The notes under the pieces were generated by a model. The model worked only from the letters and a program-made list of their open reading frames with translations. It made no database searches and was not told where the DNA came from. From Poseidonibacter lekithochrous (GTDB lineage Bacteria > Campylobacterota > Campylobacteria > Campylobacterales > Arcobacteraceae), in assembly GCF_018861145.1 (NCBI RefSeq), contig NZ_JAHKQT010000017.1:62001-126000 (forward strand): a stretch of DNA of 64,000 nt, given 5' to 3'. Positions within the stretch are counted from its first letter, which is position 1. Every line of letters starts with the position of its first letter. This document shows positions 13,174 through 26,526 of the stretch, piece after piece. The position numbers were made by a program, and so were the translations under genes.

Positions 13174-13250
13174 GCGTCTGTGGCTCAACTGGATAGAGCA
13201 CTGGGTTTCGGCCCCGGCGGTTACAGGTTCGACTCCTGTCAGGCGTACCA
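13174..13250 (+). tRNA. tRNA-Arg (anticodon UCG)
   Basis: A 77-nt cloverleaf with encoded CCA end. The acceptor stem GCGTCTG / CAGGCGT pairs with two G-U pairs; the D arm is GCTCAACTGGATAGAGC; the anticodon stem CTGGG / CCCGG carries the loop TTTCGGC, giving anticodon TCG for codon CGA; the T arm is ACAGG TTCGACT CCTGT. The 3' part from 13206 is duplicated at 21328, making this tRNA the integration target of the adjacent mobile element. The complete copy at the left end remains functional. Confidence 0.96.
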
Positions 13251-13273
13251 TTTAGAAGCCCGATTTAATCGCT
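13206..13273 (+). repeat. attL: 68-bp direct repeat at the tRNA-Arg 3' end
   Basis: Bases 13206-13273 are identical to 21328-21395. The repeat starts in the anticodon loop (TTTCGGCC), runs through the T arm and CCA and continues 23 bases past the tRNA into the terminator stem. Beyond 13273 similarity continues imperfectly through the T-run. Confidence 0.95.
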
Positions 13274-13302
13274 GTTTGCAGTGTTTATGTCGGGCTTTTT
13301 TT
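13256..13302 (+). terminator. Terminator of tRNA-Arg
   Basis: Stem AAGCCCGA (13256-13263) / TCGGGCTT (13290-13297) followed by a run of T. The left arm lies within the att repeat. Confidence 0.8.
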
Positions 13303-13339
13303 ATATTGATAGATATTCAAATACCCAGATGTTCCCCAT

Positions 13340-13930
13340 CTAATTCTTTTTTATAAAGTCATTAAGACTTGTAGATTTTAAATAAGTAGCATAATATTTA
13401 TCTAATACTCTATTTGGAATATTGTTAATAAAGTTAAATATTGCATAATAAATTGTATCTATATCTAATTCAAGTAAATAGGAAGATAAGCAATTAAATG
13501 GTTCTTCTAATATTTTACTATTCATATTATTATTGATTTCCGAGGCATAGTATTTATTTAAATATTTTAATAACAATATATTTACTTTTGTGTCAATCAT
13601 ATTACTTTTATTAGATGAATAATGTAATAAATCATCAAATATATTTTGTCCAAATTTATCAAAAAAACTAAAATAAAGAAATATTCCTTCTTCTTCTAAT
13701 GTATCAGCTAGTTTTTCAATAAAAAAGAAATATTCATCGAACTGTTTTTGACTATAGACATTTATTAAATCGTATCTTGAAATACTATCTGTATTTATAA
13801 ACTGTATTAAATCATCATCAGTAAAATACTTTTCAATTAATCTAATTATTGGTCTATTCTCTTTTCTCCACTTTCCTACTCCTTGAGGAGTCATACTAAG
13901 TACTTTTGAAATTAGTGTGTTTGTAATCAT
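13340..13930 (-). CDS. Putative DNA-binding regulator of the element
   Basis: 196 residues, not matched to a named family. Residues 5-22 (TLISKVLSMTPQGVGKW) have the pattern of a helix-turn-helix, and RKENRPIIRLIEKYF follows as in Cro/CI-like regulators that recognise their own operator. The rest is helical, acidic and Tyr/Asn-rich. It is transcribed divergently from the 88-residue HTH gene across a 160-base region with two classes of inverted repeats, the arrangement of a repressor controlling an integrative element. Regulator function is inferred from position and from the N-terminal motif only. Confidence 0.55.
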   Translation of the reverse strand: MITNTLISKVLSMTPQGVGKWRKENRPIIRLIEKYFTDDDLIQFINTDSISRYDLINVYSQKQFDEYFFFIEKLADTLEEEGIFLYFSFFDKFGQNIFDDLLHYSSNKSNMIDTKVNILLLKYLNKYYASEINNNMNSKILEEPFNCLSSYLLELDIDTIYYAIFNFINNIPNRVLDKYYATYLKSTSLNDFIKKN

Positions 13931-13939
13931 TTATAGCCT

Positions 13940-14036
13940 AAATTGTAATAATATTTCTAAATTTTATACAATTAACTCTTAAGGAAACATTGTTTCCAAT
14001 ATTAAGAATTTATTAAGTGAAATAATATTACAATTT
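13940..14036. promoter_or_regulatory. Operator cluster between the divergent element genes
   Basis: Three symmetrical sites. At 13940-13956 (AAATTGTAATAATATTT) and 14020-14036 (AAATAATATTACAATTT) is an inverted pair matching at 16 of 17 bases. Between them, 13983-13997, is a perfect palindrome GGAAACA-T-TGTTTCC. Probably bound by the regulator encoded at 13340-13930 and/or the HTH protein at 14092. Confidence 0.6.
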
Positions 14037-14091
14037 ATGGAGCAAAAACATATAAAATGAAATATAGTTACAATACATAAAGGAAAAAGAA

Positions 14092-14358
14092 ATGAATTAC
14101 GAAGACATATTAAAATACAACCTTATGCGTTTAGAAGATGCATTTCCAAATTCAAAAACGTCAATAGGTATTACAAAAGAGCAGTTAGCAGAATATAAAC
14201 AATGTTCAATTTCAACAATAGATAGAGCTATTATGGAGTCTGATTCAAGTGTTATCCCTGATTACATAAAAGGAAAAGGAAAAAATGGACGTGTGTTTTT
14301 CCCTTTATTAAATATTGCTATGTATTTAACAGACCAAACTGTAAAAGTTGTTAGGTAG
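14092..14358 (+). CDS. Small helix-turn-helix protein of the element
   Basis: 88 residues. The segment ITKEQLAEYKQCSISTIDRAI (about residues 25-45) is a clear helix-turn-helix, followed by KGKGKNGRVFFPLLNIAMYL, which looks like a winged or excisionase-style extension. The start ATG has an AAAGGAAAAAG ribosome site. It is the first gene of the rightward element operon and ends 5 bases before the DUF4373 gene. It could be an excisionase/recombination directionality factor or an activator; sequence alone does not decide. Confidence 0.6.
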   Translation: MNYEDILKYNLMRLEDAFPNSKTSIGITKEQLAEYKQCSISTIDRAIMESDSSVIPDYIKGKGKNGRVFFPLLNIAMYLTDQTVKVVR

Positions 14359-14363
14359 TAATC

Positions 14364-15005
14364 ATGTTAAAAAAGGATGCATATTACTTTTCTCATGACA
14401 GTAATGCAAAAGATGACTTCAAGTGTATGTTACTCATAGAAGAGATAGGATTAGAAGGATATGGTATTTTTTGGATATTAGTTGAAACATTACGAGAACA
14501 AGAAAGCTATAAATATCCATTAAAACTACTTCCTAGTCTTGCAAGAAAATATAATACTACATTAGCAAAAATGAGAGTTGTGGTTTTAAATTATGGTTTA
14601 TTTATACTTGAAGATGAGAAATTCTTTTTTAGTAAAAGTTTGAATAACAGAATGGCGTTAATGAATAGTAAAAAAGAGCAAGCAAGGTTAGCAGGAATAA
14701 AGTCAGGAGAGGCAAGAAGATTAAAAAATGAACAGAAATCGAACGGACGTTCAACGGATGTTCAACAAATGTTGAACAAAGAAAGAAAAGAAAAGGAAAA
14801 GAAAGAAAAAGAAAAAAAAGATATCGAAATTTTAAGAAAAATATCAGGAATGACAGCAAGAGAAATGTCACAAATTAAATTAGAATCATTAGGATTGAGT
14901 ATTGAATGTGAAAATTTGGTTAAGAAAGAATCTTTACCAATGATTGTTAATTATGCAATTAATAATACAAGATATTTAATTGGTGAGATAAAAAAAGGAT
15001 ATTAG
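14364..15005 (+). CDS. DUF4373 (Lin1244/Lin1753-type) replication-associated protein
   Basis: 213 residues. The first 95 residues match the DUF4373 or Lin1244/Lin1753 N-terminal domain found in phage and plasmid replication proteins: KKDAYYFSHDSNAKDDFK, IGLEGYGIFWILVETLRE and the ARKYNTTLAKMRVVV helix. A highly charged Lys/Glu linker (residues about 115-155) follows, then a small helical end domain. Such proteins act as replisome organisers or initiators. In this element it could allow replication of an excised circle. The role is inferred from the family. Confidence 0.65.
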   Translation: MLKKDAYYFSHDSNAKDDFKCMLLIEEIGLEGYGIFWILVETLREQESYKYPLKLLPSLARKYNTTLAKMRVVVLNYGLFILEDEKFFFSKSLNNRMALMNSKKEQARLAGIKSGEARRLKNEQKSNGRSTDVQQMLNKERKEKEKKEKEKKDIEILRKISGMTAREMSQIKLESLGLSIECENLVKKESLPMIVNYAINNTRYLIGEIKKGY

Positions 15006-15182
15006 ATGAATATAGATCTTAAGAGAATGAAAAAAATATTACAAAAAGAAAGAACTAAAGTAAAAGTAATTGAAAAAAGAAAAAGAACTTCAATCAATGT
15101 AAGAAATAAAAAATATGAAAGATATTTAAAATATGAAAATACAGTTCTTTCTAAAATTTTTACTCCTTACGAAAAGATTTAA
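15006..15182 (+). CDS. Small basic protein of the element
   Basis: 58 residues, starting directly after the stop of the DUF4373 gene (TAGATG). It is strongly basic (MKKILQKERTKVKVIEKRKR) and ends IFTPYEKI. The tight coupling and coding-like composition argue that it is real. No family is recognised; a nucleic-acid-binding accessory is possible. Confidence 0.5.
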   Translation: MNIDLKRMKKILQKERTKVKVIEKRKRTSINVRNKKYERYLKYENTVLSKIFTPYEKI

Positions 15183-15183
15183 A

Positions 15184-15468
15184 ATGATTGTAGATATTAG
15201 CTATCAAAATACAGATGATGTTGAAAATAGAGTTACTGTTGTTAGAGTAAGAAAATCATCTAAAAGAGATTATCTCTTTGATATAGAAGTCTTAAGAAGT
15301 ATTTGTTCGGATTTAGCAATGTCCTTTGATCGTATGGGAGGCGAATTTTATAAAGATTGTTTTAATAATTTTGTAATTAATGCTAAAGAGGATGCTGTTA
15401 TTCAAATTGAAATATCATGGGAAGATACATATCTAGGAATAATATCATCTCAGAGTTTGCCATACTAA
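15184..15468 (+). CDS. Hypothetical protein of the element
   Basis: 94 residues from the ATG at 15184, which lies one base after the previous stop; the longer reading frame starting at 15133 overlaps the upstream gene and is less likely. The sequence (MIVDISYQNTDDVENRVTVV ... IQIEISWEDTYLGI) is beta-rich, acidic, and has two cysteines. No family is recognised. Confidence 0.5.
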   Translation: MIVDISYQNTDDVENRVTVVRVRKSSKRDYLFDIEVLRSICSDLAMSFDRMGGEFYKDCFNNFVINAKEDAVIQIEISWEDTYLGIISSQSLPY

Positions 15469-15493
15469 AAAAGTAATGGAACAGTACTTAAAT

Positions 15494-15525
15494 AAAATTT
15501 CTAATCCCTTGTGGTAAGAAATTTT
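15494..15525 (+). promoter_or_regulatory. Hairpin in the intergenic region upstream of the mob gene
   Basis: A 9-bp perfect stem (AAAATTTCT / AGAAATTTT) with a 14-base loop containing CCCTTGTGG; a similar string CCCTTTGTG recurs at 15536-15544. The 116-base region between two small genes has no reading frame. It could be an origin of transfer or a regulatory leader; neither is proven. Confidence 0.35.
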
Positions 15526-15584
15526 CAACAAGCATCCCTTTGTGAGTACTTACATTTTTATATAAAAATGAATGGAGAATTAAA

Positions 15585-15845
15585 ATGACAAAGAAAGAAG
15601 AAGCTATTTATCTACTTGGATTATTAGGTTATAAATTTGATGACTTCGAGAATGCACTTAAATTATTAGAAGAAAATGAATTTAATAATCTTGTAGATTT
15701 TTATTATGAATTAGAAAATTATAATATTGAAAATGAAACGGCAACTAGAATTTCATTAGCAGGCTGTTATCCAAAAATTAAAATAAAAAATGGCGACTGG
15801 TGGGAAGTTGAAGAATTGATGAGAAAGTGCAATGTTTCAATCTAA
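15585..15845 (+). CDS. Small acidic protein upstream of the relaxase
   Basis: 86 residues, acidic and helical (LEENEFNNLVDFYYELENYNIENE), with a CYPKIKIKNGDWWEVEELM tail. The start has an ATGGAGAAT ribosome site. It lies 27 bases before the putative relaxase gene, the usual position for an accessory mobilization protein, but no family match is recognised. Confidence 0.5.
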   Translation: MTKKEEAIYLLGLLGYKFDDFENALKLLEENEFNNLVDFYYELENYNIENETATRISLAGCYPKIKIKNGDWWEVEELMRKCNVSI

Positions 15846-15872
15846 GTAAAAATATTTGTAAAAGGTATAAAA

Positions 15873-17120
15873 ATGAGAAAAGGAACTTTTTCAGTACAAA
15901 ATGCAACTACACATTCTACTAAACATAACTCAAGAGAAGAAGCTCCAAGATATTTAATTGGCTTAGAAAGTGGAAAATCAAATTATTATGAATTGATAGT
16001 TGAAGATGAAGAGTTTGTTGAAAATGCTAAGTTAAGATACAAAGAATATGTAAAACAGAATATGCAAAAGAAACAAATCCCTGGATTAATCAAAGAAACT
16101 ATTTTAACTCTTAAAGAACATCAAAATGAAAATGATGTTAAAGCATTATTCAAAGAATTAAATAAAAAATATGGAGGACACTTTTTAACAGAAGTTTCTA
16201 TCCATAGGGATGAAGGACACTTTGTAAGAAATGATATTGCATATTATCCAACAAAGAATATTTTACAAAAAGAAAATGATTGGTATATCTGTTCTAATCC
16301 ATATATCAAGAAACCAAAAAAAGATGATTTTGATATAAAAGTAAATATTAATGAATTTAAAAAAGTTTATAACTATCATGCACATGCTAAGTTTTCAATG
16401 TTTGATATGAATACAGGTAAAACTGCACGAATAGATAAAAAAGCTATGAGTAGTAGAATTAAATTTATAAGTAAATATCTAGGTTTAGATTATGGTCCAG
16501 GGAAAGACCGTTATATTAAGAAATCAGTTAATCAAATTAAAGATGAACATTTAGCAGTTTCTAATGAAAAGATTAAAGAATTGGCTAAACAAAAAGATTT
16601 AAAGCTAGAAATTGCAAGAGTAAGAGAAGAGCTACAAAAAGAAAAAGCAACTAGAAAAGATTATGCAGCACTTGAAGAATTAAACAGAAATTTAAAAAAG
16701 AAAATTAGTAATAAACAAATAACAATAGATGAAATGCAAAATGAGATTGATACTCTTAACGAGCAATTCAATAATAACATCAATCCTATTGAACTTGAAA
16801 AAGAATTAGAAAGAGTTTTAGATGAACATTTAGAAGAGCAGGAAGTAAAAGTAAGCTTATTTGGTAAAGAAACTAAATCAGTAGTTGAAGATAAGTTTTC
16901 TTTCAAAAGTGCATTAAGTAAGCTTATATCAAAAGGTGCAGTTTATTTATTGAAAAAATATAATGAGTTGAAAACAAAATATGAGCAGTTACAAAAACAA
17001 TTTAACAACTTAGAAAAAGAAAATATACATTTAAAAAGTTTGATAGAAAAATTAAAAGAAAATTATCAAGATAAAAAAGAATTAAACATTGTTAGTAAAA
17101 AAAGAAATTTTAATAGATAA
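15873..17120 (+). CDS. Putative Mob/relaxase protein with C-terminal coiled coil
   Basis: 415 residues. The N-terminal half looks like a HUH-type mobilization protein (Mob_Pre/MobV-like): VSIHRDEGHFVRNDIAYY at about residue 110 and NYHAHAKFSMFDMNTGKT at about residue 168 provide the His-x-Asp-Glu and His-x-His cluster, followed by a conserved KAMSSRIKFISKYLGLDYGPGKD segment. The spacing between the two motifs is longer than in classical MobV. From residue about 225 to the end it is predicted coiled coil (LEELNRNLKKKI and similar). The N-terminus ATTHSTKHNSREEAPRYL may carry the DNA-contacting or nucleophile region. The role in mobilization is inferred from motifs and context. Confidence 0.6.
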   Translation: MRKGTFSVQNATTHSTKHNSREEAPRYLIGLESGKSNYYELIVEDEEFVENAKLRYKEYVKQNMQKKQIPGLIKETILTLKEHQNENDVKALFKELNKKYGGHFLTEVSIHRDEGHFVRNDIAYYPTKNILQKENDWYICSNPYIKKPKKDDFDIKVNINEFKKVYNYHAHAKFSMFDMNTGKTARIDKKAMSSRIKFISKYLGLDYGPGKDRYIKKSVNQIKDEHLAVSNEKIKELAKQKDLKLEIARVREELQKEKATRKDYAALEELNRNLKKKISNKQITIDEMQNEIDTLNEQFNNNINPIELEKELERVLDEHLEEQEVKVSLFGKETKSVVEDKFSFKSALSKLISKGAVYLLKKYNELKTKYEQLQKQFNNLEKENIHLKSLIEKLKENYQDKKELNIVSKKRNFNR

Positions 17121-17162
17121 GAATAGTGAGTATTTTATATGATTACAAATTGACATATTTTT

Positions 17163-17190
17163 ATAGATTAAAATTTTTTTAGTCTATAAT
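17163..17190 (+). promoter_or_regulatory. Promoter with overlapping inverted repeat upstream of the methylase
   Basis: An inverted repeat ATAGATTAAAA / TTTTAGTCTAT (10 of 11 match, 3-base spacer, 17163-17187) runs into a -10 element TATAAT at 17185-17190, 65 bases before the methylase start. The overlap suggests repression of the restriction-modification operon by a bound protein. Confidence 0.5.
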
Positions 17191-17255
17191 TATAAGAGAT
17201 ATAGCAACTATTAGATATATTACAAATTTAACAAATAAAGGGAATTAAAGAATAA

Positions 17256-18086
17256 ATGTGTAAGCCAGTTATAAAATGGGTTGGAGGAAAACGCCAACTT
17301 TTAAATGAATTAAAAAAATATATGCCTAAAAATTTCAATACATACTTTGAGCCTTTCATAGGTGGTGGGGCTTTATTTTTTGATTTAAAAATAAAAAAAA
17401 GTTTTATAAATGACTATAATTCAGAGCTAACAAATTTATATGAGATTATTAAAAACAAACCTAATGAACTTATCAAAGATTTAGAAAAGCATCAAAACAA
17501 TTCAGAATATTTTTATAAGACAAGAGAATTAGATAGAACACCCGAAAAATATAAAAGATTATCAAAAGTAAAAAAAGCAAGTAGATTTATATATCTTAAT
17601 AAAACTGGTTTTAATGGACTTTATAGAGTAAATAGAAGTGGTCAATTTAATGTGCCATTTGGTAAATACAAAAACCCTAATTATGCCGATAGTGATAATA
17701 TTTTAGCTTGTAGCGAATTATTACACGATACAACTATATTAAATGGAGACTTTGAAATTATAAAGAAACATATTCAAAAAGGTGACTTTGTATATTTTGA
17801 CCCTCCATATGTTCCATTGAATGAGACTTCAAGTTTTACTGGTTATACAGACAAAGGCTTTGATGAAGATATGCAATTTAGATTAAAAGAATTATGCGAC
17901 TATATAAATAGTATTGGAGCTTATTTTATGTTATCTAATTCGTATACTAAATATATAGAAAATTTATATAAAGAATATAATTTAATTACAGTTCAAGCCA
18001 ATAGAGCTTTAAATTGTAAAGCTACGGGAAGAGGAAAAATAAACGAATATATCGTTATAAATTATGAAATTAATAAGGAAAAATAA
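17256..18086 (+). CDS. DNA adenine methyltransferase, Dam/MboI-type
   Basis: 276 residues, the typical size for a Dam-family N6-adenine methylase. Motifs in order: KWVGGKRQLLNEL at residue 7 (the X motif), YFEPFIGGGALFF at about 31 (motif I, AdoMet binding), NKTGFNGLYRVNRSGQFNVP at about 113, and the catalytic DPPY in GDFVYFDPPYVPL at about 178. This subfamily mostly modifies GATC, so GATC is the likely target but is not proven. Its stop overlaps the next gene start (TAATG), coupling methylase and endonuclease. It lies in the mobile element and is therefore acquired. Confidence 0.88.
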   Translation: MCKPVIKWVGGKRQLLNELKKYMPKNFNTYFEPFIGGGALFFDLKIKKSFINDYNSELTNLYEIIKNKPNELIKDLEKHQNNSEYFYKTRELDRTPEKYKRLSKVKKASRFIYLNKTGFNGLYRVNRSGQFNVPFGKYKNPNYADSDNILACSELLHDTTILNGDFEIIKKHIQKGDFVYFDPPYVPLNETSSFTGYTDKGFDEDMQFRLKELCDYINSIGAYFMLSNSYTKYIENLYKEYNLITVQANRALNCKATGRGKINEYIVINYEINKEK

Positions 18087-19303
18087 TGTCTAAGATAACA
18101 AGTCATACTTCATGGGAAAATATTTTTAATCAATATAATGTTTTAAGTGAAATTAGTCGAAATAATTATTTTGATATTACGGCAGACCAAATAAAAGCTG
18201 TTGATGGTAAAGAAGCGAGACTTATGACAAAAGTTGATTTTAGACAAAGCTTACCCAATATAATGAAGCAAGAAGAACTTTCTATTTTAGCAATAAAAAA
18301 TGGTTTATATAGAATTGCAAAAAATGACCCTTTTATTAATATCAATCAAAATATAGAAACTGAAATTATTGAATTAGAAGCACCTTCAAATATAATAAGT
18401 ATTGACCCATATAATATAAAAAGCGAAAGTGCTGCATTAGATATTGCAACTATTACAGAAATGGCTAATACTGTATTTGGAGAAGAGAGTAGTTTATCAA
18501 TTAGAGGAAGGTTAAGAGGCTCATTAAATTTTAATATTGGAACTGTTCCATATAATATTGACGGAGTTCAAATAGAAGTTGATGGAGGCTACGAAGGTAA
18601 TTCCTCAATAAATTTAATTGAAGCAAAAATTGGTTATCGTGATAATATTAATATAAGGCAATTACTTTACCCTGAATTATATTGGAAAAATGAAATTAGT
18701 AATAGAAAAACAATCAAGAGCTATATTTTTTATTTACAAGAAGATATTTATAGATTCATTCCTTATATTTATGATGGAGTAATAGGCTACGCAGACCACG
18801 CAAATGAGAAAGCATTTAAATTTAAAGAGCCTTCTTCTGATTTTTCTTTATTTAGTATCGAAATAAATGAAAATCATATATGTTTAAACACTCCATTTCC
18901 ACAAGCTGACAAATTTGATACTATTCATAGTATGTTAATTTTAATATCAGAACACCCATGCATGACAAAAGAAGAACTAAAATTAAATTTTGATATCGTT
19001 GATAGACAAATAGATTATTATTACAATGTTTTAAAATGGTTAAAACTTTGCGAAGAAGAAAATGATTGTATGGTCTTAACTACAAAAGGAATAGAAGTTC
19101 TTCAATTACCTTTTAAAGATAGAATTATTGAAATATCAAAGATTGTATTTTCAGAACCCATTTTCAATAATTACTTAAATGATAGAGAAGTAAATCTTCA
19201 ATTATTTCAAAGATATAATGTAAATAGTGAAAGCACTAAGAATAGAAGACTTCAAACTGTTAAGGCTTGGGTTTTATACTTTAAGAATATCGTTGAAAAT
19301 TAA
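18086..19303 (+). CDS. Putative type II restriction endonuclease partner of the methylase
   Basis: 405 residues. The N-terminal part (SWENIFNQYNVLSEISRNNYFDITADQIK, then ARLMTKVDFRQSLPNIM) and the central segment with Asp166, Glu179 and Lys181 (EVDGG ... LIEAKIGY) fit a PD-(D/E)xK nuclease site, and NIRQLLYPELYWK follows as in known endonucleases of this type. The C-terminal 130 residues look like a winged-helix domain that could read DNA. Position directly after, and translationally coupled to, a Dam-type methylase supports the role. The recognition site should equal that of the methylase. Assignment is by motif and context. Confidence 0.75.
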   Translation: MSKITSHTSWENIFNQYNVLSEISRNNYFDITADQIKAVDGKEARLMTKVDFRQSLPNIMKQEELSILAIKNGLYRIAKNDPFININQNIETEIIELEAPSNIISIDPYNIKSESAALDIATITEMANTVFGEESSLSIRGRLRGSLNFNIGTVPYNIDGVQIEVDGGYEGNSSINLIEAKIGYRDNINIRQLLYPELYWKNEISNRKTIKSYIFYLQEDIYRFIPYIYDGVIGYADHANEKAFKFKEPSSDFSLFSIEINENHICLNTPFPQADKFDTIHSMLILISEHPCMTKEELKLNFDIVDRQIDYYYNVLKWLKLCEEENDCMVLTTKGIEVLQLPFKDRIIEISKIVFSEPIFNNYLNDREVNLQLFQRYNVNSESTKNRRLQTVKAWVLYFKNIVEN

Positions 19304-19315
19304 GAGTAGAAGTAA

Positions 19316-19465
19316 TTATTTACTTCTACACTCTTTACACCAACTTTGGTTAGTTGCATTACCGCTAATTGTTCTATAACCAAATAGCTTATCTAACTCA
19401 ACTGCTGTCGTTGCTACTTTTCCACATTTTGGGCATGAATGTGGTAAATTTATTTTTCCTGACAT
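19316..19465 (-). CDS. Small zinc-ribbon protein
   Basis: 49 residues, with two CxxC knuckles: HSCPKCGKVATT at residues 9-20 and SWCKECRSK at the end. A good AAAGGAAA ribosome site precedes the ATG. Its function is unknown; similar mini zinc ribbons occur as stand-alone pieces of HNH-type or RNA-binding proteins. It is convergent with the endonuclease gene, with 12 bases between the stops. Confidence 0.6.
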   Translation of the reverse strand: MSGKINLPHSCPKCGKVATTAVELDKLFGYRTISGNATNQSWCKECRSK

Positions 19466-19475
19466 TTTTTTTCCT

Positions 19476-19706
19476 TTATTCTTTTCTCATCATAATTTTT
19501 AAAGTTTCTTCACTGTATCCTCTGTTTAGTAATTCTTTTGCAGCATATCTAGAACTTATGCCATCTTTAGATTCAACCATTTCTAATAACTTTTCGTCAT
19601 TATATTTAGAAAATTTTTCAGTTCTTTCTTCCTGTTGTTCTACAACTTTTTCACTTGTTTCTTTGACAAAATTAAAAACTTTTTTTAGAGTACTTATTAA
19701 TTCCAC
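19476..19706 (-). CDS. Hypothetical protein of the element
   Basis: 76 residues if started at the GTG at 19706, which has a TGAGG ribosome site 8 bases upstream; a GTG at 19721 is the longer alternative but lacks such a site. The protein is helical with a central charged coil (ETSEKVVEQQEERTEKFSKY) and a C-terminal segment RYAAKELLNRGYSEETLKIMM. It is followed after 10 bases by the zinc-ribbon gene, so the two probably form a unit. No family is recognised. Confidence 0.5.
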   Translation of the reverse strand: MELISTLKKVFNFVKETSEKVVEQQEERTEKFSKYNDEKLLEMVESKDGISSRYAAKELLNRGYSEETLKIMMRKE

Positions 19707-19824
19707 TTGATACAACCTCACTTTAATTAAATTATAATTATAAACATCATAATATAATTATTATTATTTCTAAATTAAAGTAATAAAATGCACATTATAA
19801 AAATCAATCAGATATGTTTAAAAA

Positions 19825-19971
19825 ATGAGTAGAACAGAATAAGAAAAATGGCGATATGAATTATGTAAAACAAAAGAAGAAAAGCAAAAGATCATGAAGG
19901 TAAGAACTGGTAGTAACTTTCCTAAAATCTTATTCTATATATTTAAAATTATTTTTTCTTTTCATCATTAA
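19825..19971 (+). pseudogene. Small gene with an in-frame stop
   Basis: A 48-codon frame reads MSRTE-stop-EKWRYELCKTKEEK and continues to a stop at 19969. The TAA at 19840-19842 is one base from CAA (Gln). The remainder (IMKVRTGSNFPKILFYIFKI) has a coding look with a hydrophobic end. This is probably a dead copy of a small protein, or translated only from an internal start at codon 24. The rest of 19707-20019 is AT-rich with no other recognisable feature. Confidence 0.4.
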
Positions 19972-20019
19972 AAATTAAAAGTAATAAAAATTAGTGTCCT
20001 TTTTTATTCCCCATTTCTA

Positions 20020-21153
20020 TTAGATTATATTTGACATAATGGCATCTATCATGTCCCTACCACTATCAGGGGATAGTTTCGCATATCTTAAAGTCATATT
20101 AATATCTTTATGATTTAAAAGCTTTTGAATGGTATATATTGGAGTACCTTTAATTGCTAAGTTACTTGCAAAACTATGCCTAAAGGTGTGAATAACAACT
20201 CTATTTTTAGCATCACTTTTTTCAAGACCTTCATTGAAAAGTTCATCTAAGATAGGTTTTAATCTTTTTTGTATTTCTCTTAATTTTGCTTGAGTATTAT
20301 TTATTTGAAATATATAATCATTTACACTAAGAGTTTTTAGCTTTTCATTTAAGATGGTTGCTGTTTCTTTAGTTATAAAGCCTGTGTATGTTGTACCATT
20401 CTTGAAGTCTGTTAAAGTAATATTTCTTTCCTCAATGTTTATGTGCTTTTTTTGAATATTAAGTGTTGTTGTTGCTCTTGCACCTGTAGAGAATGAAATT
20501 AAACAGAATAGATAGAGAAGTTCATTATCTCTAACATTGTCAAGTAACAGTTGAATCTCACTTAATGTTAAAAATCTTTCTCTTTTATTATTGATTTTGA
20601 CCCGTTTGATTTTATTAAGAGGATTTGTACCTTTATAAACATCATTGTTAATAGCATAATTAAAAATTGTACTAAATAATGTGAGTATATGATTTACAGT
20701 TTTTGGTGCAAGTGTTTTAAGCTTCTCACGTTGCAGTTTTTGAATATCCTGTATAACTATAGCATCTAAGTTTTTTTTGCCGAATATAGGCTTTAAATGA
20801 GTGTTATATCTATATACTTCATTGTCTTTACTTTTTTTATTATGATGAACTTCTCTATATTCAAAATATTGCTTTGATATATCATCTAAAATTAATGTTG
20901 TTCTATTATTTCTAGCTGCAACTTTTGGCAGGTCTTCACCTAATCTAATTTTTGTAATAATTTCATTTCGTTTTGTGTTACAATAATTCTCTCTTATACC
21001 TTCAGAGAATTTACCTATTTTTAATTCTTTATCTTTTAAGTTTTCATCTTTATATCGTATGTAATAAGTTTTATCAGGCTTACTATTTGTGGTAGAATGT
21101 ATGTAATATACACCTATGAATTTTGTTTTATTTCTATTAAATGCTTTTCCCAT
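20020..21153 (-). CDS. int: Tyrosine recombinase (integrase) of the element
   Basis: 377 residues from the ATG at 21153, chosen because AGAAAGGG lies just upstream; an ATG seven codons earlier has no ribosome site. Domain order: an arm-type DNA-binding N-terminus with the FIGVYYIHS strand, a SAM-like core-binding domain at about residues 80-190, and the catalytic domain. Catalytic residues visible are Arg226 (STGARATTTL), His322 and Arg325 (HTFRHSF), His348 (LLNHKDI) and the nucleophile Tyr357 (RYAKL). It sits 174 bases from the right 68-bp repeat and should catalyse insertion into and excision from tRNA-Arg. Confidence 0.93.
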   Translation of the reverse strand: MGKAFNRNKTKFIGVYYIHSTTNSKPDKTYYIRYKDENLKDKELKIGKFSEGIRENYCNTKRNEIITKIRLGEDLPKVAARNNRTTLILDDISKQYFEYREVHHNKKSKDNEVYRYNTHLKPIFGKKNLDAIVIQDIQKLQREKLKTLAPKTVNHILTLFSTIFNYAINNDVYKGTNPLNKIKRVKINNKRERFLTLSEIQLLLDNVRDNELLYLFCLISFSTGARATTTLNIQKKHINIEERNITLTDFKNGTTYTGFITKETATILNEKLKTLSVNDYIFQINNTQAKLREIQKRLKPILDELFNEGLEKSDAKNRVVIHTFRHSFASNLAIKGTPIYTIQKLLNHKDINMTLRYAKLSPDSGRDMIDAIMSNII

Positions 21154-21327
21154 TTTTACCCTTTCTCTCCCCATCTTAAATAAAATAAAGTGCTATAATT
21201 TGTAAATAACATGATATAAGAAAAAGGAATTATCGAATACTATAAGTACGATATATGCGATGATGTGCGAGTAAATTGATTGAAGTTAAAGTGAATTGAT
21301 ATATAGTGATAAATCGCTAATATATAA
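21154..21327. other. Region between integrase and attR, possible arm-type sites
   Basis: Non-coding, AT-rich. The short string AATTGAT is repeated near 21274-21300, and GCGATGATGTGCGA is a local near-repeat around 21257. These could be integrase arm sites, but no clear consensus can be shown by eye. Nothing else is seen. The stretch without a gene continues through attR to 21517. Confidence 0.25.
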
Positions 21328-21395
21328 TTTCGGCCCCGGCGGTTACAGGTTCGACTCCTGTCAGGCGTACCATTTAGAAGCCCGATTTAATCGCT
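21328..21395 (+). repeat. attR: 68-bp direct repeat
   Basis: Identical to 13206-13273. It carries only the 3' part of tRNA-Arg from the anticodon loop, so it is not a functional tRNA. It marks the right boundary of the element. Confidence 0.95.
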
Positions 21396-21425: not shown

Positions 21426-21517
21426 ATGTCTAAAAATTAAAGTGATGCCTATATCACACTAATAGATTAGCATTTTCGTCAAATGATTTTATTAGGAAAA
21501 TATAAAGATATTTTATA

Positions 21518-22516
21518 CTATTTAGTCCTTACTCTTTTCATTCTATCTTTATAAGATTCCTTATAAAACTCTTTTGCTTTAGGACTTAAAAAAGATTTAT
21601 CAATTAAATCTTCTACTTCTAGATATGAATCTTCAATAAATTTCATAATTTTATTAAATCTAATTTCAGGTAAATCTATAAACTTAGCAAAAGTTTTGAA
21701 ATCATTATAAGTATAGTAACCATAAGCTTCATAAGTATCCGTATAATCATCTAATAAATCTATTGCCATATCTCCATATTTTTCATTTATATGAAATCTT
21801 GTGTTTAATAAATCATAACTTGGTGTTAAAAAGTATTCATTAGAATCTGCTTTACTATACAAAGAAAAGTTTTTAAGATGAGCATCGCCATTACATATTA
21901 GATAGTTTAAAATAATTCTTTTAAAAAAATCTTCTTGTGATACTATACTAGATGCTACATGTTTTTTTATCATCTTTGCACAATCTAAATAACTACAAGC
22001 ATCATACTTATAATTTTCTCCATGAGTTACTGGTGTTATTCCCATAATTCCAGCAAAATCTTCTTGATCGTATTTTAAAGCTGATACATCATCATAATCA
22101 AATCTCTTTGTTATATAAGCTAACTCTCCATCACTAAATCTAATCAAACCACTTGAAGCTGTAGGAATTTTAAATATGTTCTTTGAGATAAGCATTGATA
22201 AATGTTCATTTGCCACAATATCTTTTTCATTTTGAATATGTCCATCCCCATTAGTAATAGGTTTTAAAATATATCTTCCATTAGCTGCAGTGGGTATTAA
22301 GTCTTTCTTTTCAAAAGTTAAAGAGATTTTATCTTGAACCCCAGAGATTGACATTCTAGGCGATAATTCTGCTCTTTTTTTAGTAAATTCAATTCTGTCA
22401 AAACTTAAAGGATTTGGCACTTTCCCATTAAAAAGCTCTTTAATACACTTTGGACAATAGTTATTTCTTAGTTTTTTATTTTCTGATAAACAACCCAAAC
22501 ATATTTTATCTTCCAT
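21518..22516 (-). CDS. hipT: HipT-type serine/threonine kinase toxin
   Basis: 332 residues. It lacks the N-terminal subdomain-1 of classical HipA and is preceded by a separate gene for that part, as in HipBST systems. The N-terminus has a zinc knuckle (Cys6, Cys9, Cys21, Cys24) not usual in the E. coli HipT. The phosphate-binding loop contains MSISGVQDKISL with Ser56-Ile57-Ser58, matching the SIS motif where HipT autophosphorylates. The kinase core follows: ILKPITNGDGHI (lysine), ICNGDAHLKNFSLY (catalytic Asp) and PSYDLLNTRFH (metal-binding Asp). In E. coli O127 HipT phosphorylates tryptophanyl-tRNA synthetase; the target here is unknown. Confidence 0.88.
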   Translation of the reverse strand: MEDKICLGCLSENKKLRNNYCPKCIKELFNGKVPNPLSFDRIEFTKKRAELSPRMSISGVQDKISLTFEKKDLIPTAANGRYILKPITNGDGHIQNEKDIVANEHLSMLISKNIFKIPTASSGLIRFSDGELAYITKRFDYDDVSALKYDQEDFAGIMGITPVTHGENYKYDACSYLDCAKMIKKHVASSIVSQEDFFKRIILNYLICNGDAHLKNFSLYSKADSNEYFLTPSYDLLNTRFHINEKYGDMAIDLLDDYTDTYEAYGYYTYNDFKTFAKFIDLPEIRFNKIMKFIEDSYLEVEDLIDKSFLSPKAKEFYKESYKDRMKRVRTK

Positions 22517-22518
22517 TT

Positions 22519-22845
22519 TTATATCTCATCTTTTTCTATAGTAATAGAACCTATTGTGTTCTCTTTTGTTGTTAATAATAATCTTGAAAAATCATCATTT
22601 TTATCAATTCTAAGTTCCTTGCATTGAATATCTTTTAATTTACCTTCTGCCAATAAATTATAAAAAAAAGGAAATAAACTTTTTGATGTAAATTCCTCTT
22701 CTTGTAAAGGGAATGTTAGACTAATAGCTTTTGCATTATCTTTATTTAAATACTCTTTATCATAAACAAAGCTATAGCTATTGTCATCAAACTTTGTAAG
22801 TAAACCAGTAAAGGTGTTATTTCTAAAAACTTTTGCTCTTTGCAT
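22519..22845 (-). CDS. hipS: HipS-type antitoxin (free HipA N-terminal subdomain)
   Basis: 108 residues corresponding to subdomain-1 of HipA: AKVFRNNTFTGLLTKFDDN at the N-terminus, then SLTFPLQEEEFTSKSLFPFFYNLLAEG, which aligns with the HipA segment SLPL...PFFDNLLPEG. In HipBST systems HipS, not HipB, neutralises the kinase. The gene overlaps hipB by the TAATG junction and ends 2 bases before hipT, so the three are one operon in the order B-S-T. Confidence 0.88.
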   Translation of the reverse strand: MQRAKVFRNNTFTGLLTKFDDNSYSFVYDKEYLNKDNAKAISLTFPLQEEEFTSKSLFPFFYNLLAEGKLKDIQCKELRIDKNDDFSRLLLTTKENTIGSITIEKDEI

Positions 22846-23057
22846 TATTTAATCTTCACTTTGATATCTAATTCCATTCCTAATACATCTAAAAGTTTTT
22901 CTAGTGTTTTAACCGTAGGATTAGCTTTTCCATTTTCAATCTCAGATATTGAAACATAATTAACACCTGAATAATCTTGTAAATCTTTTAGTTCAAGATT
23001 TAATTCTTTTCTTCTTTTTTTTATAGTTTTACCTATTTTAGCAGATGTTACTTCCAT
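22845..23057 (-). CDS. hipB: HipB-type Xre family transcription regulator
   Basis: 70 residues forming a single Xre/Cro helix-turn-helix: IGKTIKKRRKELNLELKDLQDYSGVNYVSISEIENGKANPTVKTLEKLLDVLG. This fits HipB, which binds operators and augments toxin neutralisation through the HipS-HipT complex. It is the first gene of the operon. Three 19-bp near-identical sites lie in the 209-base region upstream, the nearest 26 bases from the start, so autoregulation is likely. Confidence 0.85.
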   Translation of the reverse strand: MEVTSAKIGKTIKKRRKELNLELKDLQDYSGVNYVSISEIENGKANPTVKTLEKLLDVLGMELDIKVKIK

Positions 23058-23082
23058 TTTAATACCTTAATATGTATTCTTA

Positions 23083-23222
23083 TTTAGTATATAAGTTAAA
23101 TATGTTTAATTATATATCTATAAAAATTAATATTTACTTTAAATTTAAGTTATATACTAAATAATATGATACGAGTTGATAATATTTGAAAAAAGACTTC
23201 ATATTTAATATATATGTTAAAT
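23083..23222. promoter_or_regulatory. Three operator-like repeats shared by hipBST and the divergent helicase gene
   Basis: Sites at 23083-23101, 23143-23161 and 23204-23222. Aligned in one orientation they read ATTTAACTTATATACTAAA (site 1, reverse), ATTTAAGTTATATACTAAA (site 2) and ATTTAACATATATATTAAA (site 3, reverse). Centre spacing is about 60 bases. Each has TTTA / TAAA half-sites. They occupy both promoter regions and are the expected HipB targets. Confidence 0.65.
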
Positions 23223-23266
23223 TAAAAATATGATAAACTCAATTTACAAAAATAATTGGATTCTAA

Positions 23267-26200
23267 ATGTTTAAAAATGGTTTATACGAACAACTCATAA
23301 ATAATTTGATTTCAAATAAATTAAATTCTTTGGATTTGGAAACTATTTATTATAAAACTACTGCTATTGAAAAATCGGAAGCTTCTAATTTCTTAACACA
23401 ATATATAAGTAACTTTATTAATCATTCACTGAATTTAATAAGTGGTGAAAATAGTGTTGAAACCAAGATAAATATCATAAATAAAATAATCTTATTACTT
23501 CAAAGTGAAATAGAAAAACAAGATTTTAAAGATAATTTACTTGATATTAATACTTCTATTTTAAAAGCAGTTATACCAAAACTTGATTCTCATATAAAAG
23601 ATTTTGACACTTATATTAAAGAAATCACTCCATATACAGGTCTTACTCAAAGTGAACTTTTTACGGGAAGTAATGCTGGAGTTTCTTTAGAAAGTGAAAT
23701 AAAAAAAGAGATACTTTCTTCTGACAAGATATATTTTCTGGTCTCTTTTATAAAATGGTCAGGTATTAGGATATTTGAAAAAGAGTTAAGAGAATTTACT
23801 AAAAGAGGAAAAAAACTACAGGTTATTACCACTTCATATATGGGAGCAACTGATTTAAAAGCAGTTGAATTTTTAGCAAGTTTACCAAATACTGAAATTA
23901 AAGTTTCATATAATACAGCAAATGAAAGACTACATGCAAAATCTTATCTATTTTTTAGAGATACGGGTTTTCATACTGGATATATAGGTTCTTCCAATAT
24001 TTCAAAAAGTGCACTTACAAGTGGATTAGAATGGAATTTAAAAGTAACAAATTCAGAAATTTCACATATAATAAAAAAGTTTGAAAAAACTTTTGAAACA
24101 TATTGGGAAGATAAAGAGTTTGAAGTATTTACACAAGCAGAAAAACAAAAACTTCAAATTGCACTAAATAATGCTTCGACAAAAGATACAAATAATTTCT
24201 CAACTTTTTTTGATATAAAACCGCATCATTATCAAGAAGAAATTTTAGAAGAACTTCAAGTACAAAGAGAGGTTCATAAACGTTACAAAAATCTTTTAGT
24301 TGCTGCAACAGGAACTGGAAAAACAGTTATAAGTGCTTTTGATTATAAACGATTTAAACAAAATAATCCAAGTGCAAAACTTTTATTTGTAGCTCATCGA
24401 AAAGAAATCTTAATACAAGCTAGATCTACGTTTCAAGCAATATTAAAAGACAATAATTTTGGTGAATTATGGGTTGATGGAATTACTCCTTTAAGTTATG
24501 AGTACTTATTTACCTCTGTACAAACTTTACAAAATAATATTGAAAAACTCTCTCTTACAAAAAACTATTATGATTTTATAATAATAGATGAAGTACATCA
24601 CATAGCTGCAAAAAGTTATAGACCAATTTTACAAAAGTTTGAAGCAAATATTCTCTTAGGACTTACAGCAACACCTGAGAGAATGGATAATGAAAATATT
24701 CTAGATGATTTTTGTGGTGTAATTGCTTGCGAGATTAGACTTCCTGAAGCATTAAATAGAAAACTACTTTGCCCTTTTCAATATTTTGGAATTAGTGATA
24801 GTGTAGATTTACAAAATATAAAATGGCAAAATGGGAAATATCAAACAAGTGAACTAAATGATGTTTTATCAAGTGAAAAAAGAGTTGGTGAAATTATTGC
24901 AAAATGTGAAGAATATCTAAGAGATATAAATGATGTCTTAGCAATTGGCTTTTGTGTATCACAAGAACACGCAAAGTTTATGAGTGAGAAATTTAATGAA
25001 GTTGATTTAAAAGCAGATTTTCTTATAAGTGGAAGTTCCAATAGAGATGATGTGAAGTCAAGATTATTAAAAAAAGAAATAAACTATTTATTTGTAGTTG
25101 ATATCTTTAATGAAGGTGTTGATATTCCACAAATTGATACTATCTTATTTTTACGTCCAACTGAGAGTTTAACTGTGTTTTTACAACAATTAGGGAGGGG
25201 ACTTAGATTTGCTGAAAACAAAGAGTGCTTAACTGTTTTAGATTTTGTAGGAAATGCTAGAGATGAATATGATTTTGAAGGTAAATTTAGAAACTTAATT
25301 GGTAAAACCTCTAATAGTGTAAAAGATGAAATAGAAAATGAATTTCCTCATTTACCTTTAGGATGTTCAATAGTCTTAGAAAAAAAAGCTAAAGAACATA
25401 TTTTAAATAATATTAAAAAAGCAACTACACTTGGTAGAAGAAAACTAATATCAAAAATAAGAAATTATGAAAATCAGACAACTTTAGCACTTACAATTAG
25501 AAACTTTACGAAGATAAATCATCTTTCCTTAGAAAATTTATATAAAAAAGATAGTTTTTCTAAATTGTGTTATGAAGCTAATATTGTAGAAGATTTTAAT
25601 GAAGTTAATGAAAAAGAGCTGATAAGAGCAATTTCTAAAAAATGGCTATTAACAAGATCTCATAGTTATTTTGAATTTATTTTAGAACTTATAGATAATA
25701 ATTTTGATTTTACAAAAGAAGTTATGGAAAAAAATAAAAAATCATTTTTGATGCTTTATTATGATTTCTTTCAAGACCCAAATATGTTTAATAGTTTAGA
25801 CGAAGGAATAAAATATATAGGAAATAATAAAATCTTAATTAAGGAATTAAAAGAGGTAATTGAAATTTTAATAGATAAAATCACTCATATTGAAAGTGAT
25901 TTAGATTTACCATATTTTTGTCCAATAAAACTACATTCAAGATATACAAGAGAACAGATATTATCAGGTTTTGGGCAAAATAGTTTTCATAAAAAATCAA
26001 ATAGTAGAGAAGGTGTTTTAAATATAAAAGACAAAAATACTGAACTTTTATTTGTAACATTAGAAAAAACAGAAGATAAATATTCCCCTACAACTATGTA
26101 TGATGATTATGCAATAAATGACAGATTATTCCATTGGCAATCTCAAAATTCAACTAAGCCAGACTCTCCTAAAGGTTTAAGTTATATTAACCACCAAAAA

Positions 26201-26395
26201 GAGAATAAAAATATTATCTTATTTGTAAGAGAATCAAGCCATAATGAAAATAAAAATGTAATGACATATATATGTTTAGGGAAGGTTATTTATAAAAGTC
26301 ATTATGGAAGCCAACCTATGAGTATTACATGGGAACTTGAAAATAAAATACCACCTTTTTTATGGAAAAATATTGCAAAAATGGCAGTGGGATAA
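23267..26395 (+). CDS. PLD-nuclease / superfamily II helicase / DUF3427 protein
   Basis: 1042 residues in four parts. Residues about 130-280 are a phospholipase-D-like domain with the HKD-type motif LHAKSYLFFRDTG and GSSNISKSALTSG. Residues about 320-660 are the helicase core: Walker A in AATGTGKTVIS, DEVHH box in FIIIDEVHHIA, motif III GLTATPERMD, and motif VI FLQQLGRGLRF. A linker follows, and the last 160 residues match DUF3427 (RYTREQILSGFG ... LLFVTLEKTEDKYSP). Such proteins are thought to be nucleic-acid-processing enzymes and are common in accessory regions; a defence role is plausible but unproven. Divergent from hipBST across shared operators. The ribosome site is weak. Confidence 0.85.
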   Translation: MFKNGLYEQLINNLISNKLNSLDLETIYYKTTAIEKSEASNFLTQYISNFINHSLNLISGENSVETKINIINKIILLLQSEIEKQDFKDNLLDINTSILKAVIPKLDSHIKDFDTYIKEITPYTGLTQSELFTGSNAGVSLESEIKKEILSSDKIYFLVSFIKWSGIRIFEKELREFTKRGKKLQVITTSYMGATDLKAVEFLASLPNTEIKVSYNTANERLHAKSYLFFRDTGFHTGYIGSSNISKSALTSGLEWNLKVTNSEISHIIKKFEKTFETYWEDKEFEVFTQAEKQKLQIALNNASTKDTNNFSTFFDIKPHHYQEEILEELQVQREVHKRYKNLLVAATGTGKTVISAFDYKRFKQNNPSAKLLFVAHRKEILIQARSTFQAILKDNNFGELWVDGITPLSYEYLFTSVQTLQNNIEKLSLTKNYYDFIIIDEVHHIAAKSYRPILQKFEANILLGLTATPERMDNENILDDFCGVIACEIRLPEALNRKLLCPFQYFGISDSVDLQNIKWQNGKYQTSELNDVLSSEKRVGEIIAKCEEYLRDINDVLAIGFCVSQEHAKFMSEKFNEVDLKADFLISGSSNRDDVKSRLLKKEINYLFVVDIFNEGVDIPQIDTILFLRPTESLTVFLQQLGRGLRFAENKECLTVLDFVGNARDEYDFEGKFRNLIGKTSNSVKDEIENEFPHLPLGCSIVLEKKAKEHILNNIKKATTLGRRKLISKIRNYENQTTLALTIRNFTKINHLSLENLYKKDSFSKLCYEANIVEDFNEVNEKELIRAISKKWLLTRSHSYFEFILELIDNNFDFTKEVMEKNKKSFLMLYYDFFQDPNMFNSLDEGIKYIGNNKILIKELKEVIEILIDKITHIESDLDLPYFCPIKLHSRYTREQILSGFGQNSFHKKSNSREGVLNIKDKNTELLFVTLEKTEDKYSPTTMYDDYAINDRLFHWQSQNSTKPDSPKGLSYINHQKENKNIILFVRESSHNENKNVMTYICLGKVIYKSHYGSQPMSITWELENKIPPFLWKNIAKMAVG

Positions 26396-26526
26396 GTTAA
26401 AAAGTAACAACAAATTTCTGTAGTTTTTTAAGACAAATATCAATATATAAAGCATTAAAATTTGTATTTAATATAAGTATTTGTTGAGATTGAATATACT
26501 ATTAGAATTATATTCTAGGAGTTGTA

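Follow-up and report, generated by a model that had tools for sequence, protein, structure and literature searches.

A likely integrative mobilizable element with restriction-modification cargo behind a tRNA-Arg gene of Poseidonibacter lekithochrous

What kind of DNA sits behind a tRNA-Arg gene of Poseidonibacter lekithochrous, and could it still move between cells? The question arises from a stretch of 64,000 nucleotides (the window; NCBI RefSeq assembly GCF_018861145.1, contig NZ_JAHKQT010000017.1, positions 62,001 to 126,000 of the forward strand), in which two 68-bp repeats bracket 8.1 kb of DNA with a predicted circular form of 8122 bp. A preliminary description made from the sequence alone had proposed an integrative mobilizable element (IME) carrying restriction-modification genes, and our analysis agreed with it: attachment (att) repeats, an empty site in a sibling genome and a relaxase were found, no secretion genes were seen in the element, and we regard a compact IME as the probable explanation of the whole. 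From the tRNA side, the genes run in the order repressor-like regulator (minus strand), helix-turn-helix (HTH)-like protein, initiator, small open reading frames (ORFs), relaxase, methylase, endonuclease, two small ORFs (minus strand) and integrase. The features central to this reading are listed below, including part of a putative origin of transfer (oriT).

13174 to 13250, plus strand: tRNA-Arg(tcg), the integration target, intact (ARAGORN)
13206 to 13273, plus strand: left 68-bp repeat (att site), an exact repeat made of the 3' part of tRNA-Arg plus 23 bp
14364 to 15005, plus strand: replication initiator, Lin1244_N (PF14297, 3.3e-14) and phrog_2562 (Pfam, PHROGs)
15506 to 15570, plus strand: left half of an oriT-like structure, with outer arm 15506-15516, middle arm 15526-15532 and an AT-rich perfect palindrome at 15553-15570
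15873 to 17120, plus strand: MOBV-like relaxase, predicted, 415 aa, HUH domain and coiled-coil tail (alignment, fold)
17256 to 18086, plus strand: Dam/DpnM-type adenine methyltransferase (family match, 2.1e-70), GATC as putative target
18086 to 19303, plus strand: type II restriction endonuclease, DUF6996/DUF6997/DUF7226 (PADLOC REase_II, 4.7e-44)
20020 to 21174, minus strand: tyrosine integrase, 384 aa, reading inward (Phage_integrase, 4.6e-21)
21328 to 21395, plus strand: right 68-bp repeat (att site), an exact repeat

The two repeat copies proved identical and end at these coordinates, with the adjoining base differing on both sides, and no other direct repeat of at least 18 nt between 12000 and 23000 came near 68 bp at equal identity. 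The left copy begins 32 nt inside the tRNA-Arg(tcg) gene, which had been named as the target, and extends 23 bp beyond the gene end; the earlier placement of the element's start at 13206 holds for the repeat but not for the tRNA gene, which itself begins 32 bases earlier. The right copy is followed by a near-copy of the tRNA terminator hairpin (25 nt, 96%). Base composition is no marker of the element, since its G+C content (25.6%) is close to that of the window (27.0%). To place the insertion, we turned to nine siblings from the genus and compared what follows this tRNA in their genomes, where one stretch (L096) stops at the tRNA and two (L088 and L092) are short; with L096 excluded for that reason, the element was found in none of the eight informative stretches. 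In sibling G003, the tRNA and terminator lead directly into sequence matching the window from 26469 onward, and this locus is a clean empty site for the element and also for the neighbouring stretch 21428-26468. Sibling G006 has that neighbouring stretch (94% identity) following a tRNA-end fragment of its own and lacks the element, and the two arrangements together indicate two independent insertions in tandem behind tRNA-Arg. In the neighbouring stretch, separate genes code for the C- and N-terminal parts of a HipA-like kinase and are accompanied by an HTH gene, and a further product of 1042 aa matches a model of type IV methyl-directed restriction enzymes (1.3e-211); the HipA part of the stretch occurs twice in sibling G002.

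The integrase, as previously recognized, is of the tyrosine type and keeps the residues R233, H329, R332, H355 and Y364. Of 200 related genomes, 49 (counting that of the window) have an integrase of this type (E up to 1e-70), and we compared 28 stretches holding it, the window included. A tRNA or transfer-messenger RNA gene was also present in 16 of the 28 (L100 being counted with the adjoining L101), and in 12 of these 16, of which the repeat test left out L103 and L104, a repeat of 25-68 nt joins the tRNA end to a second site (in L112 with two mismatches). L036 offered just two 14-mers of one imperfect repeat, and L115 no repeat longer than 12 nt linking the tRNA end. The insertion targets are chiefly tRNA-Arg and tRNA-Glu, with related elements lying at these genes within the bacterial family of the window, and the related elements include the same integrase type with other cargo at this tRNA, a search that had been suggested at the outset. 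Two further observations concern this integrase type: a second integrase belonging to it (46%) lies in the same genome (G000:C43:155410-156486, L042), with no tRNA in the stretch examined, and in L100 and L101 (genome G057) two integrases and a 64-67-bp repeat of the tRNA-Arg end, present three times, mark tandem elements at the same target.

The 415-aa protein, earlier called a putative relaxase, was not recognised as one by Pfam, NCBIfam or PHROGs, and its assignment comes from alignment and fold. It holds the motif residues H18, R21, H111, D113, E114, H169 and H171 (HNxR/HxDEG/HxH), the first histidine of HNxR being presumably the MobM nucleophile. Among 19 aligned relaxase proteins, 12 columns were invariant in all 19, including R21, H111, D113, E114, G115, H169 and H171, and H18 was kept in at least 90%. 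H18, R21, HxDEG and HxH are likewise common to this protein and a Bacteroides plasmid protein typed MOBV, whose sole Pfam match is PF03432 (2.3e-6). A structure model of residues 1-240, built with 11 sequences (predicted local distance difference test score 82.7), had MobM of pMV158 (4lvj_A) as its best VIA-align match (Z 12.4, root-mean-square deviation 3.3 Å, 156 residues); MobM filled the six top rows (Z 10.8-12.4), and the other relaxases listed after it had a Z of 9.4 or lower. Foldseek on the same model was weak (best E 1.6e-3), and a single-sequence search of PDB sequences returned no match. A profile of the 19 relaxases against PDB sequences yielded coiled-coil chance matches only and was replaced by the fold comparison. 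On the strength of motifs and model, we conclude that the protein is a predicted MOBV-like relaxase with intact active-site residues and predicted activity. Its sequence relatives occur in 22 of the 200 genomes, again counting the window's own, and on 34 plasmid records, the best being small Aliarcobacter plasmids at 62% identity; none was encoded on the viral contigs scanned. PLSDB types 29 of the 34 plasmids as non-mobilizable, and the relaxase genes on them would belong to a real MOBV-like group.

Whether this relaxase travels with the integrase was addressed by comparing the stretches and the two trees. Relaxase family and integrase occur together in 8 of the 28 stretches (the window, L032, L034, L036, L037, L039, L040 and L098), and a profile search placed a TrbL/VirB6 protein in 6 of these 8; all five of the relatives' proteins checked against Pfam passed PF04610. 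Within the window's element, neither TrbL nor a recognisable remnant of it was found, and Pfam, NCBIfam and PHROGs revealed no transfer gene besides the relaxase among the element's ORFs, as had been claimed. Large membrane proteins of 623-870 aa also lie near relaxase genes at L098:7313-9787, L035:10702-13311 and L120:5112-6980; they looked pore-like by eye, but none rose above the Pfam cut-off and they were not counted as TrbL, although they are possible undescribed secretion-pore subunits. The two trees place the window differently: by integrase it falls with L040, L098 and L100 (96/93), by relaxase with pABRW13 and the Sulfuricurvum/Sulfurimonas loci (95/98), within a wider group (100/100) that contains no TrbL-bearing locus; L098, L041 and L125 have long branches in the relaxase tree and their placement is unsure. 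L034 and L039 have almost identical integrases but relaxases from different groups, and the idea of a relaxase that simply follows the integrase was dropped for this reason. The conflicting trees show that relaxase modules have been swapped between elements and small plasmids, and that the window's element exchanged its mobilization module with small plasmids or related elements. Pairs of elements with and without TrbL/VirB6 offer a natural test of why helper-dependent elements carry pore subunits.

A relaxase needs a site to act on, and 12 of 18 relatives have a palindrome upstream of the relaxase gene that was reached by none of 60 shuffles, while those of the other six are weaker (reached by 1, 3, 5, 13, 14 and 39 of 60). 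In the Sulfuricurvum/Sulfurimonas loci L118 and L119, the palindrome forms the centre of three nested inverted repeats. The window matches the left half of this structure: its outer left arm (11 nt) is exact and is the sole copy in the 64 kb on either strand, its AT-rich palindrome was reached by 1 of 60 shuffles and lies at about the right distance for the relatives' core palindrome, and an alignment score as high for the left half arose in 1 of 200 Markov versions of the element and, for a stretch of 430 bp, in 0 of 2000. An oriT of the small-plasmid type was expected upstream of the relaxase and was not found; nucleotide similarity to the small plasmids begins at about 15848-15873, at the gene start, and their oriT-like palindrome falls outside the matched part. 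According to the available text of one study, the minimal binding site of the pMV158 relaxase consists of IR1 plus 8 nt, all 5' of the nick (PMC5863519), so by analogy the half structure may still work. Since only half of the relatives' oriT is recognisable, transfer today is not assured, and we regard present-day transfer of the element as uncertain.

In the restriction gene pair, first described as an operon, methylase and endonuclease overlap by 1 bp. DpnM is the best PDB match of the methylase (2.1e-82); the endonuclease has no sequence match in PDB and shows a candidate D-x12-E-x-K site from residue 166. Endonuclease relatives occur in 8 of the 200 genomes, the window's own among them, and in four of four other genomes opened the methylase adjoins the endonuclease, at other places and without the element's integrase or relaxase. 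The pair is thus cargo and not, as had been considered, a constant component of this group of elements. GATC sites are fewer than expected in the element (3 against an expected 15.2). The remainder of the window is likewise strongly depleted (52 against an expected 162), and because the two are alike, a GATC specificity of the pair is plausible at most.

The remaining features of the element are a set of putative regulators and small ORFs.

13340 to 13930, minus strand: repressor-like regulator, 196 aa (blastp)
13939 to 14037, no strand: 19-bp inverted repeat pair, 95% complementary, 61 nt apart (repeat search)
14092 to 14358, plus strand: small HTH-like protein, 88 aa (sequence relatives in L040 and L098)
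15006 to 15468, plus strand: two small unknown ORFs, 58 and 94 aa (ORF list)
15585 to 15845, plus strand: small unknown ORF, 86 aa (ORF list)
19316 to 19465, minus strand: small ORF, 49 aa, with paired CxxC motifs (ORF reading)
19476 to 19721, minus strand: small unknown ORF, 81 aa (ORF list)

By blastp, the N-terminus of the regulator, a phage-like putative repressor, resembles a gene adjoining the tRNA in L032, L036 and L040; Pfam gave no significant match. The inverted repeat pair sits between the divergent regulator genes and probably represents operators, and the 88-aa HTH-like protein, whose place is occupied by HTH_17 proteins in other elements, is a candidate excision or control factor. 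The initiator had been described as a DUF4373 protein, which we take to be the older name of Lin1244_N, and the match to that family bears this out. The 58- and 94-aa ORFs lie roughly at the position of TrbL/VirB6 in most relatives.

From this anatomy and the sibling empty site, the integrase would recombine the 68-bp repeats, giving the 8122-bp circle and a restored tRNA locus, and the Lin1244-type initiator, judged by its family, probably permits brief replication of the circle. The MOBV-like relaxase, part of the exchanged mobilization module, would nick an oriT just upstream of its own gene and lead one strand into a type IV secretion channel supplied by a conjugative element in the same cell, and in the recipient the integrase would insert the element at the tRNA-Arg gene. 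As cargo, the Dam-like methylase and the restriction enzyme may defend the cell against unmethylated DNA and penalise loss of the element. PF03135 was matched in 9 of 104 genomes of the family, and a published A. butzleri plasmid of 27 kb carries a set of type IV secretion genes (PMC3896396), so helpers exist in the family, though none is visible in this genome.

Several results weigh against the IME reading. The assembly has no match to VirD4 (PF02534) or VirB4 (PF03135), models that do not cover every system; the right arms of the relatives' nested oriT were not found in the element; TrbL/VirB6 is present in most relatives with both integrase and relaxase and not here; and no second copy of the whole element occurs in the genomes searched. 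A decayed IME, with integrase and relaxase intact and half the oriT lost at the relaxase exchange, would now be a defence island that stays in its host and is capable of excision at most. The two readings overlap, since the IME reading concerns what the element is and decay its present activity, and we take decay seriously while leaning slightly against it. The half oriT, plasmid similarity that excludes the plasmids' oriT-like palindrome and the missing helper match all speak for decay, but integrase and relaxase are open with their motif residues kept, a perfect, AT-rich palindrome (1 of 60 shuffles) occupies roughly the place of the core palindrome in the relatives, and a half-site might do, given that binding in pMV158 needs only IR1 and 8 nt 5' of the nick in the accessible part of that report (PMC5863519).

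The element's own initiator and the relaxase's nearest relatives on plasmids of 3.4-5.2 kb are also what an integrated cryptic plasmid or replicon would show, its HUH protein serving rolling-circle replication and not transfer. We find this very unlikely: the small plasmids, like the element, carry a separate replication initiator, the fold best matches relaxases, and the integrase with tRNA att sites marks a dedicated integrative element. A repressor, a small HTH protein, a replication initiator and a tRNA integrase recall the layouts of phage satellites (phage-inducible chromosomal island- or P4-like), which a helper phage packages; this origin appears extremely unlikely here, as the Pfam, NCBIfam and PHROGs matches include no capsid, terminase or packaging-interference family, the viral contigs scanned hold no relative of the relaxase, and a relaxase is not known as a satellite hallmark. 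The compact IME therefore remains our preferred reading.

A chromosomal relative of the relaxase deserves separate mention. A protein of 335-343 aa stands alone directly behind argF-hemN in nine of nine loci tested (L023-L031; also L122 and L124), with pairwise ratios of nonsynonymous to synonymous substitution (dN/dS) of 0.08-0.58, and occurs in 10 of 31 Aliarcobacter genomes, named cases being Aliarcobacter cryaerophilus LMG 9065 and A. vitoriensis. Several loci have a short GGTGCT...AGCACC palindrome upstream of it, and it looks like a domesticated relaxase. That one Campylobacterota lineage of MobV-like relaxases moves among small plasmids, tRNA-inserted elements (swapping, with or without TrbL/VirB6) and a fixed hemN-side Aliarcobacter locus (under purifying selection and with an oriT-like palindrome) is a speculative and rather unlikely scenario. 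An active hemN-linked copy would give the chromosome a defined origin from which a helper could mobilise all of it.

The family concerned comprises emerging food-borne and environmental bacteria, and descriptions of mobilizable, defence-carrying elements from it are scarce; this element adds one. Our literature search on Arcobacter, Aliarcobacter and Campylobacter, whose coverage left subscription journals mostly outside, turned up, among the records listed, no description of an integrative mobilizable element in these bacteria. The earlier remark that such elements are poorly described in Arcobacter-type bacteria thus stands for the mobilizable kind but not for islands generally, given that the A. 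butzleri islands ABGI1-3 also have a terminal integrase and direct repeats, one lying at tRNA-Leu and one carrying type I restriction genes (PMC2147049, available text). Their repeats measure 21-25 bp, unlike the 68 bp here, and in the same text the authors saw no function suggesting plasmid origin. The small Aliarcobacter plasmids pABRW13, AB-1163-LD and AB-1166-LD have the closest relaxases (62%, with 71-76% nucleotide identity within the gene), but they are free plasmids with a complete oriT-like palindrome and no annotated integrase or restriction-modification gene; putative mobilization genes were reported on AB-1163-LD and AB-1166-LD in the accessible part of the original paper (PMC3896396). 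Through the five relatives that match TrbL/VirB6, the family resembles islands carrying subunits of type IV secretion systems, as described in the available sections of two sources (IncP islands with TrbJ/K/L, PMC5704250; SGI1 with TraN/H/G, PMC5389848), whereas the window's element lacks TrbL or a recognisable remnant. The accessible part of the review (PMC5704250) lists IMEs with MobV relaxases, replication genes (replisome organizers), type II restriction-modification and TrbL, so the element, which has replication and type II restriction-modification genes of this sort, belongs to a known kind. According to the same review, IncP plasmids can mobilise MobV elements in E. coli. With the MobV IMEs Tn4451, Tn5520 and IMESag-rpsI of that review, it has in common its own recombination module, its own MobV-type relaxase and the lack of a secretion system; it differs from them in its Campylobacterota host, a relaxase too divergent for Pfam models, a half-oriT and a tRNA-Arg target. 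The integrative mobilizable lifestyle is already known, and here it is found in a little-described bacterial family.

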